A stretch of DNA of 64,000 nucleotides from Gautieria morchelliformis. Taxonomy: Eukaryota > Basidiomycota > Agaricomycetes > Gomphales > Gomphaceae. Shown piece after piece: positions 1 through 7,245 of this stretch. Both the position numbers and the translations under genes were made by a program. The notes beneath the pieces were generated by a model. That model was not told the origin of the DNA, did not search any database, and saw only the letters and a program-made list of their open reading frames with translations. The DNA is taken from the NCBI GenBank assembly GCA_015179125.1, contig WHVA01000013.1, forward strand, positions 372,001 to 436,000, in the 5' to 3' direction. The stretch's first letter is position 1. Every line of letters starts with the position of its first letter.

Positions 1-1002
1 GACGAGAGCGAGAGCAGCACAACCTTCTGCGAGCGGTACACGTGCACGGTGACATGAGAGGAGAGGAGACCGTCTTGCATAAAGGAGCTGAGATACAAAC
101 ATCTTGCCGTTTCCTCGTCCACACGACACATCACGCCTAGGCAGAAGACCGTCCACGTGCCTCTCGTAGTCTTCACCCGTTTGCAGGTTTGTGTGAGGCT
201 GCCAAGGGTGTCACGCGAGAGAACCCGCACCCGGCATCGATCCGTGACCCGCCGAACCCTCATGGCTTCCGTGGAGTGCGTTGTGTGTCCCGCGCAGAGA
301 AACCCATCGGCGTCGTTGCGTTGTGCACGCCTCTCGTGGTCTATGACACCAGGAGCCTCTCCAGGACACATGTCTACGGTTTGGTTGTTGGAGAGCGTCC
401 CCAGGAGACCTGTCATGCACGTGGTTTCCAAGGGCGCTTCGTATATCGTGTGTGCGATGTGCCCCGAAGGACGGCGTGCGGCCTCCCCGTGTGCATGCCA
501 CGAGTACCGAGTACATCGACAACGGACTTCTGCCAACAGCGGAAACGGCAGAGAGACACTCGCTAATCTCGGAATCGACGACTGGTGCACTTCCGTAGAC
601 CCACTTCCCTTTGGAACGTCGCAGCAGATTGACACCAACCAAATCCCAGAGGAGTCCCTTGCTGAAGGTGAACTCGAGCTTGTTTGCCAGGACCGTGCAC
701 ATGCCCTCTAGGCTATTGACCATGCACGGCGGGAAAGCAAGCGACATGTCATCCTTGAAGTGCCCGTACAGGTTGTCAAAGTACGTCAACGGAGCAAAGC
801 AGTCCTTCGCAACGCATCGGCTGAGCTCTTCGTACAACGCTTTGTCTCGCTGGTATCCCCTGGCGTTTATGTAGTCCCTGTTCATCATCCGAAGCGTGCA
901 TCGAGTCTCCACAAAGCGATTCGTGGCATACAGCTTGGACTCGTAGACTGAGAGACGTATGTGATCATCGGAGGCTTCTGTTTCGGATCGTTCCTGTGTC
1001 AT
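1..1002 (-). pseudogene. RNA polymerase second-largest-subunit-like protein, virus-like, frameshifted and cut by the window edge
   Basis: Reading leftward from ATG at 1002, one frame is coding to about 490-560. A second frame, shifted by one base, is then open without a stop to base 1, so a single indel (or sequence error) splits the gene. The second frame has a TLSNN segment, then GFLCAGHT, then RVRVLS, then a VFCLGVMCRV stretch. In order these resemble the beta/RPB2 fork region (LS.LRR), the G.LCP..TPEG motif and the VFVNG...G strand. Known family roles are RNA synthesis as the catalytic partner of beta-prime; the C-terminal active-site motifs would lie beyond the window. Only about 160 residues precede the fork-like part, so the N-terminal lobe is missing or encoded elsewhere. 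Divergent from the next gene with 47 bp between. The family call is by eye and moderate. Confidence 0.42.
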
Positions 1003-1049
1003 GGTGGTGTGCATATGCGACCGTCTGTCGCTCACGTACACACAAAGCC

Positions 1050-1910
1050 ATGGATTCTCTGGAGATCCTTAAGCGCTTCGGTGATTCATGTCGCAAGGAA
1101 CACTTCAAGCAAGACTCTTACGCAGGAACTTCGTTTTTGGATTCCCTTGGCGGGTTCTTCTCTGCGTTTCCTGCCTATAGCGTAACGAACACCAGACTCG
1201 AGGAAGGGTATAATCCTCCGAACAGCGACCTGGCGAAGAACGTTCTGGCTGACATGCACTTTATGCTAACCTGCACACCGGCCTCAACGTACGTCATAGT
1301 CTCCTTCGACCGCCAGATTTACACAGAGAGATCCATGCCGTTCTTTGAAGCCCTCAGACGAAAGCTCTGGAGTCCCTCGTGTTACATACTTGTGCTTTTC
1401 GAACGAAGGGACCACACCTGGGACTGCCAAAGCTTCGGGTCTGCACACTCGTACGAGAGACTCCCTAACGCAGACGTTGTTGAAGAGTACCTCCGTTTCC
1501 TGATGAAGGATCAGCCAAACGGCCTAGCAGTTTCATGTCACAGGCAATGCACCCTCCTTCTGCGTCTCTCCGATATGCAGCTCAGCCCTCGGATATACAG
1601 CTGGAGCATTCAATGCACCCCGTCTAGGTTTGTGCAGGCAGAGCACTCTCAGACCGCGTATCAGCACATGTTCTTCACAGACAAGCACTCCGAAGAGACA
1701 CGCGCCATAGGACAAGGAAAGCTGCTGGTCTCCTCCAACGCGTCCTTGGAGTACCTCAACACTGTGCATGTCTTTAAGTACTCGGTCCGAGGCTCAAGCG
1801 ACGTCTCTGGAAAATGTGCAGACTGCGCCTCTGTTCAGAAGATGTGCCAATATGTCTCTCCCGTCAGTGTGTCCCAAACGAGCTTCGACGTGAACATAGA
1901 CCTCACATAG
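1050..1910 (+). CDS. Unknown protein of the virus-like cluster (286 aa)
   Basis: Uninterrupted ORF from ATG at 1050 to TAG at 1908-1910. The ATG was chosen over the open frame running further upstream because that extension crosses into the divergent neighbour. I do not recognise the family. No signal peptide or membrane segment is evident. The protein is mixed alpha/beta in appearance and rich in Cys, Ser and Tyr, with a Cys cluster near the C-terminus (C-x2-C-x6-C within GKCADCASVQKMC) that could bind a metal. It is divergent from the polymerase-like gene (47 bp) and convergent with the RING-like gene (88 bp, including a short T-run near 1930). No introns are visible and the packing is far tighter than elsewhere in the window. 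I infer a viral accessory protein from context only. Confidence 0.5.
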   Translation: MDSLEILKRFGDSCRKEHFKQDSYAGTSFLDSLGGFFSAFPAYSVTNTRLEEGYNPPNSDLAKNVLADMHFMLTCTPASTYVIVSFDRQIYTERSMPFFEALRRKLWSPSCYILVLFERRDHTWDCQSFGSAHSYERLPNADVVEEYLRFLMKDQPNGLAVSCHRQCTLLLRLSDMQLSPRIYSWSIQCTPSRFVQAEHSQTAYQHMFFTDKHSEETRAIGQGKLLVSSNASLEYLNTVHVFKYSVRGSSDVSGKCADCASVQKMCQYVSPVSVSQTSFDVNIDLT

Positions 1911-1998
1911 CTTTGCGTTTCGGCGGTTTCTTTTTTAAAAGACACTCCGACATGTGATAGTACAACCTCAAGGCACGGGGAACTCCTTCGTCATGTGC

Positions 1999-2997
1999 TC
2001 AGTCACTACGGGCTTCGTGGGAGTCTTCCCAATCGGCGTCCAACCAGTCCGGCGGATAATCGATCTCATCCACGTCGCTCTTGACGGTTCCGACGTCGCC
2101 TATATACGTGCCGTGCTGTTCTATTTCTATGACGTCTATGGCTCGTGTGACGACGAGGTACCGTGGGCGATAGCTGGTTCCCATGAGGTCGCATATCCTC
2201 TTCGGCACCTCGAGCTTGATGCTAAGCACGTCGTTTATCTCGCTGATGCTAGACTCGACGAGGCCTTTCGTGTGCCGATGCGGACGGCGGAACCTGAACA
2301 GACCCGAGGACACCACAGGCCAGCATGCCATGTCTCCTATGCAGACTTTAGCCTGCCATCTGGTGTTCAGCGGCACGTCTATCTCCCGGGGACGAACCAG
2401 CTCTGCGTCCGTAGGCCATTTGGAACCAGACACACAGGAGAACCGTTCGAGCCAAGGAGACATCGTCAGAATGTTGAACTCAGCCTTCTTGGTGACGTGA
2501 TCGACTACAACAGTCTTGTCGACGAGGACACGTGGCATGTTGTAGTAGCTGTATCCGTCCCGTTCTATGTCGCCGGAGGAGAGCCAGCGTCTAGCCTCCA
2601 AAAGGAAGCGAGAGCACTTGACACAGGGTGCGTTCGTCATCTTCGCGTCCAGCTCTGTGTCCATCTTAACGTGGTCCTGGAAGGTCTGGTTTGCATGCCA
2701 TCTGTTCCACATGTAGTTCGGGATGCAATCGACGTCGTTGTTCACGTAACGGGAGACCTCGACGAAGGCCTTCAACGCAGGCGTGTCCCTCCAGCAGGCT
2801 TCCATCGTGTGTGCGCAGGGGACGAACGCCTTGACATAGTCCTGCTCGTCGCATATCAGGCAGCGGTTGGCGAAATGATACGTGATGCACATTGTTGCGG
2901 TGCAGGCGACGACTCTGTCGTCTTGGGGCGTTTCATCGACAATGTCGAGTACTACACATGTTGCATGGACTCGTTTCAAGAGAGCATCAAAGAACAT
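1999..2997 (-). CDS. RING-finger-like protein of the virus-like cluster (up to 332 aa)
   Basis: Single open frame on the minus strand. Numbering from the ATG at 2997, the N-terminal third holds C46-x2-C49, C61-x-H63, C68 and C125-x2-C128. That spacing resembles a C3HC4 RING with a long loop before the last Cys pair (local texts RCLICDEQ, VPCAHTMEAC, APCVKCSR). RING proteins commonly act as ubiquitin E3 ligases and are frequent in large DNA viruses. The remaining 200 residues are unrecognised and end in an acidic tail. The first ATG overlaps the neighbouring plus-strand gene by 33 bp. ATG at 2892 (residue 36) would avoid overlap, keep the whole RING and leave about 70 bp of divergent promoter, so the start is uncertain. 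Without a conserved fifth zinc ligand the E3 role is unproven. Confidence 0.5.
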   Translation of the reverse strand: MFFDALLKRVHATCVVLDIVDETPQDDRVVACTATMCITYHFANRCLICDEQDYVKAFVPCAHTMEACWRDTPALKAFVEVSRYVNNDVDCIPNYMWNRWHANQTFQDHVKMDTELDAKMTNAPCVKCSRFLLEARRWLSSGDIERDGYSYYNMPRVLVDKTVVVDHVTKKAEFNILTMSPWLERFSCVSGSKWPTDAELVRPREIDVPLNTRWQAKVCIGDMACWPVVSSGLFRFRRPHRHTKGLVESSISEINDVLSIKLEVPKRICDLMGTSYRPRYLVVTRAIDVIEIEQHGTYIGDVGTVKSDVDEIDYPPDWLDADWEDSHEARSD

Positions 2998-3717
2998 CTA
3001 GCTGTCTTCATGGGACTCCTGCGAACACACAAGCCCAACATAAGTGACGACGAGAGCGCCTTTCTGTATGCATACCAAAGGTACCTTGCAACGTGGAGCC
3101 TATACCTTCCTTTGCACACCGTCGTGATCGGAGAGGCCCCGTACAACAGAGCGATATACCAGTCCACGTGGGCTGCGTTCTCATACGACGAGGCGAAGTC
3201 CGTCATGTACACAAACCGCAGTATGCCTCCGAGTGTAGCGGTCCTCGCGAACGACATGCACATAAACACATCCCTTCCGTTTGAGGACTGCGTTGATATC
3301 TTCAGGAACTCGTGGAAGCACATCTCTCGAGGGGTGGTCTTCATAAACGAAAGCGTCATGACACGAGACTGCTCCGACGTTTCGATCCTAACGCAGTCTG
3401 AACTCCAACGAATATACCTGACACGTCTGCTGCTTGCGTCCGTGGGGCGAGGGCAGAAGAAGATACACGTGATGTCTTTGGGACGATGTGCTGATCGCTT
3501 AGCCAACACTCTTCTCTCAGGTCTCGAGCATAAGAGCGAGATTTGGATGGTGAGGGGTGATGCTAACTCTCTCTCCTCCGATCCAGAAACCCTTCCGGAC
3601 AACTACATCTCGGCTGTTGACATGAGGGAGACGCAAGAAATAAAGGGCGATGATCTCTATTCATACGCCCAGGATGGTGGTGGTGGTGACTGGTGTGGCT
3701 CTGAAGCATCTGACTGA
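2965..3717 (+). CDS. Divergent uracil-DNA glycosylase-fold protein (250 aa), probably catalytically inactive
   Basis: ORF from ATG at 2965 to TGA at 3715-3717. The same frame is open further upstream to 1954, but that stretch is the shadow of the RING-like gene. Family-1 UDG landmarks occur in order: VVIGEAPYN at residues 53-61 aligns with the GQDPYH water-activating loop, AFS at 71-73, PPS at 88-90 with the Pro-rich loop, GVVFINESVMT at 123-133 with the GVLLLN strand, and a final strand and loop at 168-205 where the Leu-intercalation motif should be. The catalytic Asp position is Ala58 and the His of the HPSPLS motif is not evident, so uracil excision is doubtful. In some large DNA viruses UDG-fold proteins serve as polymerase processivity cofactors, which would fit. 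Length is normal for the family. The C-terminus has an Asp/Gly-rich tail. Confidence 0.55.
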   Translation: MDSFQESIKEHLAVFMGLLRTHKPNISDDESAFLYAYQRYLATWSLYLPLHTVVIGEAPYNRAIYQSTWAAFSYDEAKSVMYTNRSMPPSVAVLANDMHINTSLPFEDCVDIFRNSWKHISRGVVFINESVMTRDCSDVSILTQSELQRIYLTRLLLASVGRGQKKIHVMSLGRCADRLANTLLSGLEHKSEIWMVRGDANSLSSDPETLPDNYISAVDMRETQEIKGDDLYSYAQDGGGGDWCGSEASD

Positions 3718-6120
3718 CTCTCTGACCAGCAACAGCGGTCAGTTTGCACGTGATGACTTTGGACCGCTTTCTGCTCTGTTCTCTTAGCCAAATTCTCCGG
3801 TGCACCTCACCACCTGGCATGAAGACGATGAATTAGCATCATATATGTCTGCTAGCTCACTGGAGGAATCTGACTCTGACTCCAAGATGACAGACATCGA
3901 AATGATCCTTCATTTATACCGCACGCTCAGCTATTCTCTTTTTGTGGCCCAGGCGAGAAATAAGGTGACCCTGAACCAGCCCCTGCTATAGTACCACCAT
4001 TTTTATCTGAATATCCCATTGTTCGACAGGCATACATACCTTCGTTGAAGCATGGGTCATATACATCAAGTGTGTTGCTCTCTCCTGCCTACCATACACA
4101 TCTGAGATCGACGCCCACAAAATAGTGTGCATTAGTTTATCTCAGAAATACACACAGGACTTTCCATTGCAACCATTCTCATGAACTTCACCATGACCGG
4201 CTGCAGTGCAAGCCAGGAAGTTCTAGGTGTGTGTTCCATTCCTGTAGAACCCAAGACTCGATGGTACCTTCCATCGCTACAGCTCCCAGCCTAAACAATT
4301 GCAAGTGAGTCATGCATTTGTATCCTGTATCACCACCATGAGTTTCCCTTGCAGTCTTTGTTATGAACCTCACCTTGTCGGGCTCGCCAGGGGGAAGCTA
4401 TGGGTACGTGCCTTCCATTACTGCAGGACGCATGGGACGCATTGATGACTTCCCATCATTCCAACTTTCGGCCATGGACACCGGCGAGGCGAATTATACA
4501 TTGTATATTGTGTATAATCATTTATATCATATATGGAAGATCCTGGATGTTGCTTATTATGGCAATTTTGGTATGGGCCTCACCCGCCATCTGCTGCCCC
4601 GCCAAGCGCCCTATGTGGGGCATGCCTGTGCTTATCATCCTCACCACCATGTTCTTCACCGAGGTGGTGTGGCGGACTGCCCAGGACCAGATCGCGTTCC
4701 AAGACGAGTGGCTGTGCGGCTGAGTGCGGCGCCCTCCCCTGCCCTGCTTTCTCTAGTCAATCTGACGCAAATCCCCACACAGATGCACACATACTACACT
4801 GCATGCACAGCGGCGCTCCTCCTCCCCCTCTCCTTCAGCACCTCCCAGCGCACTCCCCGCTCGCCCTGCTCCTGCCCTTTATTGCCATCACCACTTGTGG
4901 TATGATCCTGAAGTTTCCAGCTATCAAGCGTTGTAAACAGTTTATTTATTGGCAATCCTATTTTACGCTACTATACTGGCGGCCGGGAGCCTGTGCGTGA
5001 CTCTGACCCCAGTAAAAGTTTTATATCTAGTGACATCTGGGACAACATTTGGATGACATGTCAATTATATTGGATAATCAGTCAAATCTCGCAAAGGAGT
5101 TATTTGGGTAACAGTTGGATGACCTACGGATTATTTTTGGAAAATCATCGAGGTATCGGTCGACCGTAATCTGGAGCGAAGCGCGGTGACGACTGAGTGT
5201 ACCAAAATATATTCAGGAAGCAAAAACAATAAAGGTTTCAAGCAGAGCAATGATGCCAATAGATGCTGTTCTTGACCCAACTTAGCATACATATTTTCCA
5301 AAATTTTGGTCCAAAAAATTTAGGAGACATGTTTTCTGACATATTTCAACCCCCTGAATCCAATTCTGAACTCAGTTCCCCGACTGAGCCAAGAATAGAA
5401 CAAGAAAATGTTTATAGGATGAGACCCACTAGCCTGTAAATACTTCGAGACTCATAAGACCCAATTCATACATTGGTTCGACTGGTTATCTCAAGAGACG
5501 TCTTCTAAGAACTTGCTTTATCATGGATTAGAGCTCCAATTCTTAGCTTCCTTAGATTTTTAACCTATCCCACATGAACATCAAGCTCATCACCTGCTGT
5601 TGAGTAACAAATTCCTTTTTTTTTTTTTCTAAAACATTTTACAGCTGTTTTGCTTACATAAGGCAGAGTTCTAATTTGACTCCAAAACTGTTCTGAATAA
5701 AAGAATGCGCTGTATCTCAATGATTATAACCTATTAAGGTCTGATAGATTGTGGTCAGCATCTCCCATAGCATATGTACAATAATATCACAAAATATATG
5801 CGTAATGTGTAGTGTCCAATATGCCGGTTTGGAGGACTGCAGAGGCAAAGCCCAAATTTCTACAAAATGTCCTGATATTTTAGATATACAGTATTACACA
5901 TGTTATCTTGGATTTTACCGAAGGGATTTGCAAATAACTCACTTGTTGGCTAGCTGCAGGCCACACTATATATGCACTCAAACAAGCAGTCTGTGCACTC
6001 TACTGGCCTTTACAAGATCTGTTTTGGCATTATATTTACAACAAGACTGCTATTTACAGTGCACATATGTTTTATAGGCTTGAGGCTAGCTATATTGTTT
6101 ACTGGGCTCCGAGGTGACAA
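3718..6120. other. Intergenic stretch without a convincing gene
   Basis: A short ORF at 3800-3991 has an acidic Ser-rich start and could be the first exon of a transposase-like protein, but it cannot be placed. 4140-4440 contains two degenerate copies of a motif starting ATGAACYTCACC (at 4181 and 4363), followed by similar CCTTCCAT tracts; the copies are separated by an intron-like GTGAGT...TTGCAG segment. 4400-4905 has overlapping open frames, one encoding a hydrophobic segment, with no recognisable family. From 5000 to 6100 the DNA is AT-rich with a T-tract near 5617 and many stops. I see no RNA gene here. The boundary between the virus-like cluster and fungal DNA falls somewhere after 3717. 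Confidence 0.4.
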
Positions 6121-7245
6121 ATGCGATGGTATGTCACAGAGTGTGACACACTCATGGTTTTGGATGCCATGGTCAAGACACCCCGACATCCAGATTCACA
6201 TCGCACCCGGCGGTCATACTCAAAAGATGTGCATGGTCTTGTAATATATCAGCGAGTCACCCTTGGATACAAGGTTGGGGCCATATCCACCCATCTCAAC
6301 ATGTCACAACGTGTTGTTGAGAGCATTCTCAAGTTGTGGAGAGAGACAGGGGAGGTTATCCCGGAAGGACCTGGAAGATCAGGGAAGAGATCTAGAGTCA
6401 TGGATGGGGAGGAAATGGAGGCATGTATGATCTCTATATATGAACTATTTCACTGACATTTGTATCCAGTTTCTTCTCGCTCTTTTAGAGTGTAATCCTG
6501 ATATCTATCTTGATGAGATGCAAGACCAGCTTCAGCAGCAGCATGGCATCATTGTAGGTATCTCAACAATATGGGACATGTTAACTGAGTTTGGCATTAC
6601 ACATAAGAAAGTGCGACTTATTGACTGTTGGCATGAAGTACACTCACCCTGGCCATTCAATAGCTCTCCAAGGCAGCAGCTGAGCGTAATGCAGCGAGTC
6701 GAGCCTGTTTTCAATTTCAAATTGGTGCCGAATCACCAGACCATCTAGTATTCATTGACGACAGCAGGATCGACTGTCGGATGACATATAGACTTTTCGG
6801 GTGGGCATATAAGGGTCAGTGCGCCAGAGTGAGTGCAAAGTTTGTGCGTGGGCCAGGGTATGTGCTTGTTTATCAATATACCAAGCCTAACGTTGCTCTT
6901 AGGTTCCCTATACTTCTGGCCCTTTCCAGCGATGGAATAATATTTTCAGATATTCGTGAAGGCACGTATGACGTATGATGGCCCAGCATTCGTATGATAC
7001 ATTGAGCAGTTACTTCCGCATATGAACCCTTGGCCAGAACCACGGAGTGCATTAGTGATGGATAATTGCTCAATCCATCATCTTGCTAACGTTGCGCCAA
7101 TCTGTGCTGCCAGGTGAGTCACATTCTGTTTTTCAAGGCCAAGCTCATAAATCTTTCCAGTGGTGTGCGGCTTTACTATCTACCTCCATACTCCCCCGAT
7201 TATAACCCCATCAAGGAAGCATTCTCCTGTGTGAAGTCTGTCATT
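6121..7245 (+). pseudogene. Tc1/mariner-type transposase relic
   Basis: Pieces of a cut-and-paste transposase lie in order with stops, shifts and probable introns between them. A helix-turn-helix region at 6240-6400 reads VGAISTHLNMSQRVVESILK. Then come ALLECNPDIYLDEMQDQLQ and a second HTH, VGISTIWDMLTEFGITHKK. The first catalytic Asp lies in VFIDDSRIDCR near 6750-6780, the second in VMDNCSIHH near 7060, and the Glu in LPPYSPDYNPIKEAFS near 7180-7220, as in DDE enzymes of this superfamily. A GTGAGT...TTTCCAG intron of about 50 bp separates the last two. The reading stops just after VKSVIRR where the decayed virus-like sequence begins. No terminal inverted repeats were identified, so the element limits are unknown. 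Confidence 0.75.

Follow-up and report, generated by a model that had tools for sequence, protein, structure and literature searches.

A virus-like insert within a dispersed host repeat

The window analyzed here is a stretch of 64,000 nucleotides (C149:372001-436000) in a fungal genome assembly of 122 Mb and 1,113 contigs, and at its left edge lies a compact cluster of virus-like genes set into a dispersed host repeat. The initial annotation had described four intron-less genes on alternating strands, and we found this layout to be present as open reading frames (ORFs), including the gaps of 47 bp (1003-1049) and 88 bp (1911-1998) that it had given. The features, in window coordinates, are these:

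1..3541: right part of the virus-like insert; the whole insert spans C149:371328-375541 (4,214 bp) and starts 673 bp left of the window
1..1002, minus strand: ORF A, ATG at 1002; two overlapping frames, 3' part lost at an internal joint left of the window
1050..1910, plus strand: ORF2, 286 amino acids (aa), open throughout, an unknown protein
1999..2892, minus strand: RING-like cysteine-rich protein, stop at 1999, ATG at 2892 or alternatively at 2997
2965..3540, plus strand: protein with a putative uracil-DNA glycosylase (UDG) fold, ATG at 2965, truncated after residue 192
3542..4130: right half of the dispersed host repeat, with patchy homology to ~5190; matches 22 fetched loci at 76-92%

Definable ends of foreign DNA in host sequence are seen at two sites, through an empty site at C149 and through a split tandem unit on a second contig, C948. 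At C149, the left half of the host repeat stops at L002:9327 (C149:371327) and the right half restarts at window 3542 (C149:375542); both halves were found in 14 of the 22 fetched repeat loci. As an empty-site test, we joined the two C149 flanks (80 + 80 bp) and aligned them to 10 of these 22 loci. Nine loci aligned over at least 157 of the 160 bp, with identities of 83-92.5%; eight are gap-free within 10 bp of the joint and one (L029) has a 3-bp gap just left of it, and the tenth (L030) aligned over 112 bp only. Because the flanks align through the joint, we conclude that 4,214 bp were inserted without duplication: the joined-flank alignment to the 10 loci shows no target-site duplication at C149, and about 2 bp at the left joint are common to insert and host repeat. 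Among 42 genome matches to window 211-3717, 32 cover only the tail from ~3541 on; these host-repeat matches were left out of the viral count.

The cluster had been thought to continue beyond the start of the window. It does so for 673 bp and ends there, at C149:371328, so a larger virus region directly left of base 1, where a look for capsid, DNA polymerase, primase or packaging ATPase genes had been proposed, is not supported. The proposed comparison of composition sets the insert apart, with a GC content of 0.544 versus 0.495 and a tetranucleotide distance from the host that is matched by only 1 of 97 host windows.

Gene content of the insert

The frameshift reported in ORF A seems to be real. 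The frame that finds a match at C342:36523-36600 (26 aa, 65%) is not that of the ORF A start, so a break is expected between ~512 and ~707. The suggestion that ORF A encodes the second subunit of an RNA polymerase is unsupported: it has no Pfam or PDB match, its hhalign result against Rpb2 was equalled by 9/60 and 17/60 shuffles, and an RNA polymerase match in PHROGs came at E 0.36 only. For ORF2, own-genome protein search and alignment identified homologous pieces on C342, C160, C152 and C1070; its AlphaFold2 model, built without an alignment, has a mean predicted local distance difference test score (pLDDT) of 33.2.

The RING-like label of the third gene is tentative, as the Pfam family zf-C3HC4_3 matches at E 0.029 and 14.6 bits, below the curated cut-off of 27, and the first cysteine is not conserved in the C342 copy. 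This gene had also been described as overlapping the start of the UDG-like gene, which is doubtful. Because the C948 copy has GTG where the window has the ATG of 2997, we prefer 2892 as the likelier start, with a 72-bp gap to the UDG-like gene.

The UDG fold proposed for the fourth gene is supported by profile comparison. A profile of its three copies aligned with E. coli UNG and five IMG/VR UNG proteins over 145 columns (hhalign E 5.6e-4), with the motifs of the UDG superfamily in order. The score of 31.3 was reached by 0 of 200 column shuffles (best 23.1), and the reversed profile scored 12.5. The protein shares its motif order with family-1 uracil-DNA glycosylases (E. coli UNG and its IMG/VR relatives) and has retained the histidine of the HPSP motif; it differs from them in having no Pfam or NCBIfam match and no convincing PDB match, and in reading GEAPYN for GQDPYH. 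The aspartate of GQDPYH is the catalytic residue, and alanine replaces it in all three copies. Because the usual catalytic residue is thus lost, a protein that would have served replication or repair is more likely to have been a structural partner than a uracil glycosylase of the classical kind. Searches with the profile in prokaryote genomes and with the protein in phages, both weak for distant relatives, returned no relatives, and an AlphaFold2 model of the fragment without an alignment has a mean pLDDT of 36.7.

The homologue of this gene on C948 is open over 234 aa. At C149, viral homology of the frame stops at ~3540, and the first 176 bp of the host repeat, from 3542, add the last ~60 codons. 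The resulting fused frame (2965-3717) is open for 250 codons, as would be expected if the insert had been domesticated and the fusion were now a host gene under selection. However, its tail belongs to a multi-copy repeat, ORF A is frameshifted and the selection between copies described below is best dated to before integration; we therefore hold domestication to be highly improbable.

Related copies and coding selection

Genes of this set were matched on ten contigs: C149, C948, C342, C1048, C160, C152, C1070, C371, C198 and C349. Of these, C371 and C349 were counted through a single gene, G1, which two other contigs connect with the set: on C1048 it stands beside a RING piece, and on C198 it lies near a 229-aa gene; a match on C191 (E 0.27) was left out of the count. 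At least seven different genes were found at two or more loci. The C342 copy is old, being broken by Copia- and PIF1-helicase (Helitron-type) sequence, and its observed/expected CpG ratio is 0.75 versus 1.05 in the window piece. It retains the gene order ORF2, RING, UDG, followed by matches to the 229-aa gene, whose strand relative to UDG is opposite in C342 and C948. On C198, virus-like matches extend across 137-152 kb and a host RPB2 gene lies at 86 kb; on C1048, an Rpb1-family gene of host type is present in exons. The sequence of the host RPB2 (L048) is, we presume, agaricomycete-like, which would fit the basidiomycete host of the initial annotation.

In the UDG-like and RING-like genes of C149 and C948, nucleotide differences between the copies fall largely at third codon positions. 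For the UDG-like gene, 21 of the 24 differences between C149 and C948 do so, with a ratio of nonsynonymous (dN) to synonymous (dS) divergence of ~0.045, as do 80 of 128 between C149 and C342. The RING-like genes of C149 and C948 (95% aa identity) have 31/43 differences at third positions (dN 0.022, dS 0.162, dN/dS ~0.14), and G1 has 52/82 between C371 and C1048. A further gene, G2, was left out of this comparison, as its frame contains stops. The third-position excess between C149 and C948 shows the UDG-like and RING-like genes to be coding and indicates that these copies diverged as working genes, that is, before capture.

A decayed fragment resembling host RPB2 (C371:9694-13065, L057) lies directly beside G1.

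Inverted copies and scrambled joints

The left end of the C149 insert is an exact inverted duplicate of its own interior: C149:371326-371981 equals window 2261-2916 over 656 bp (100% by blastn). The first 2 bases of this copy also belong to the host repeat, and its other end adjoins the ORF A piece at C149:371981/371982. On C948, exact inverted arms of 1,349 bp flank a 254-bp spacer; this inverted repeat includes the 3' end of the UDG-like gene, an ORF of 153 aa and a portion of the 229-aa ORF. The C948 block splits a host tandem unit in two, while the neighboring unit is uninterrupted; 23 bp of the split unit are missing, and GACTG is shared at one joint. On C371, G1 is present in both orientations, and because the two copies differ (91% identity, a stop in the second), the inversion there is no mere copy artefact. 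Taken together, the scrambled fragments, the inverted joints, the loss of a few bases and the short stretches of shared sequence are consistent with end-joining, and we saw no mark of transposition at the insertion sites examined.

A stretch of ~195 bp on C948 (L045:7828-8022), which separates the virus-like genes from the host tandem unit, has no window match and contains what may be the start of a gene (MASIEERTRDMQ...).

Exact inverted repeats are a known type of assembly artefact, and most of the proteins have no known homologue, which together would suit ordinary fungal genes in an odd neighborhood, or contamination or misassembly. Against such an account stand the empty-site alignment, the diverged copies on ten contigs, one of them old and transposon-broken, and the host RNA polymerase genes on two of those ten contigs. 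We give it very little credence.

A family-B DNA polymerase near the virus-like genes

The family-B polymerase domain PF00136 has 21 matches on nine contigs, most of which we take to be host polymerases in exons. On three contigs, virus-like genes lie close by:

C198:151771: PF00136 match at E 3.6e-15, no stop, 3.0 kb from G1
C342:55654: PF00136 match at E 1.8e-7, 44 bp from an ORF2 piece
C152:201637: PF00136 match at E 0.003, below the cut-off, ~640 bp from an ORF2 homologue

The C198 and C342 matches are above the cut-off and near the genes, as a family-B polymerase of Nucleocytoviricota would be. A motif (GYNSYAFD) at L065:606-974 that resembles a piece of a polymerase exonuclease found no match in Pfam and nothing beyond chance matches in the PDB, and we do not count it as evidence.

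Nearby polymerase matches also raise the prospect that the source was non-viral mobile DNA with a family-B polymerase, namely a Maverick/Polinton-type transposon or a fungal linear plasmid. Maverick/Polinton elements encode such a polymerase and occur in several genomic copies, two likenesses to the pieces described here, which are present in many copies and in which no capsid gene was seen. Yet the C149 insert lacks the target-site duplication of these elements, and the fragments are scrambled and of unequal extent. Their gene content differs as well, since a UDG-fold protein and at least seven recurrent genes are unlike such elements. No integrase was noticed in the virus-like pieces read, although the assembly was not searched for one and the greater part of the source genome is unread. 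On this evidence, we consider a plasmid or transposon source unlikely.

Probable viral origin and proposed route of capture

The initial proposal that a fungal genome has taken up virus-like genes has good support from the empty site, the copies on ten contigs, the adjacent family-B polymerase, the UDG profile and the third-position excess. We interpret the insert as probably a dead endogenous relic: the remains of a large double-stranded DNA (dsDNA) virus, as yet unclassified, that entered a fungal chromosome by end-joining. We infer its viral origin from the nearby polymerase matches, the UDG fold, the compact gene style and the selection, and not from a capsid.

Several results weigh against this interpretation. 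The polymerases on C198, C342 and C152 are placed by PF00136 at the family-B level only. No relatives were found in IMG/VR for ORF2, the RING-like protein, the UDG profile, G1 or the ORF2 profile, in scans that depend on matching short peptide patterns and are weak for distant relatives. More broadly, Pfam, PHROGs and NCBIfam hold no convincing match for the gene products, the strongest being that of G1 with a functionally uncharacterized PHROG (E 0.0067). For the UDG match, hhalign gives a probability of just 30%, and searches of PDB sequences with the UDG-like protein gave one chance match at E 1.3 and otherwise none. The capsid profile PF04451 has 0 matches in the genome, where the control was equally silent; D5_N (PF08706) has eight, none of them on the ten virus-like contigs; and Rpb1 matches occur at three loci only, in exons, and are taken as host genes. 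No capsid, D5 or Rpb1 was found linked to the virus-like genes, in searches that did not extend to a packaging ATPase. In the old C342 copy the third-position excess is weak (RING 194/482, ORF2 74/168), and assembly artefacts are a conceivable source of the exact inverted arms. The absence of hallmark genes tells little because only fragments of the source genome are present, and some Nucleocytoviricota have no multi-subunit RNA polymerase. The affiliation with nucleo-cytoplasmic large DNA viruses that had been proposed is accordingly not established, and we assign no virus phylum.

The D5_N matches lie on C179, C175, C221, C451, C180, C648, C41 and C222. Five of them, at E 5e-8 to 1.1e-7, have near-identical spans and open frames of 226-469 aa, and perhaps represent a multi-copy mobile element or a virus of another kind.

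Under the viral interpretation, DNA of an infecting virus would have been broken into pieces inside the fungal nucleus, and some of these pieces, joined end to end, would have filled a chromosome break within the dispersed repeat. End-joining of this kind would leave a patch of 4.2 kb in which one piece is inverted and the target site is not duplicated. Captures of the same sort would have recurred, from strains at ~95% and 70-75% nucleotide identity to the one seen at C149, leaving pieces on ten contigs. The presence of related pieces on nine contigs besides C149 suggests that fungi of this kind are, or once were, infected by DNA viruses of an undescribed group. The genes of the source virus may have been compact, free of introns and arranged in divergent pairs, and may have included a family-B DNA polymerase of its own and a protein with a UDG fold. 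We lean, with less assurance, toward a broader claim: that the pieces represent the first record of an undescribed lineage of large DNA viruses, of family rank or higher, that infects mushroom-type fungi and has been captured repeatedly and in part recently.

Relation to known systems

The closest published parallel that we found, as far as the consulted part of that report goes, is a 1.5-Mb endogenous viral region in the arbuscular mycorrhizal fungus Rhizophagus irregularis (PMC10640383). What the two cases share is that genes of a large dsDNA virus, here a probable one, lie in the chromosome of a fungus, with a family-B DNA polymerase among them. In the account consulted, the Rhizophagus irregularis region is one continuous stretch with RNA polymerase, capping enzyme and VLTF3 genes, whereas the relic described here consists of scrambled ~4-kb fragments at two measured sites, has no detectable relatives and comes from a probable agaricomycete. 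According to the same part of that report, no dsDNA virus infecting fungi was known as of 2023, relics had been reported in basal fungi, and environmental virus genomes cited there hint at Ascomycota hosts (PMC10640383). We recognized no report of large dsDNA virus relics in Basidiomycota among the titles and abstract beginnings listed, in several cases the top-ranked ones only, by searches of the open-access literature, preprints excluded, which is weak evidence of absence.

If true, repeated capture in a probable agaricomycete would extend large dsDNA viruses to mushroom-type fungi, and the polymerase and UDG-like sequences could serve as bait for finding such viruses.

Other features

The same genome contains a second Rpb2-like gene at C148:57221-61899 (L056, L049), AT-rich with a GC content of 0.31-0.34, and with two matched parts that have no stops and are apparently split by an insertion. 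Its identity is 43-47% with 11 of the 19 Rpb2 proteins fetched from IMG/VR and 39% with the RPB2 of the host, and it lies on a long branch grouping with E. coli RpoB. This gene is perhaps a separate giant-virus relic.

The neighbors of the C149 insert are a protein-kinase ORF (L002) and Copia- and Gypsy-type retroelement ORFs. Farther along the window, 6121-7000 contains broken transposase-like ORFs, which we take to be Tc1/mariner-like; two pieces of them were scanned and gave no Pfam match.

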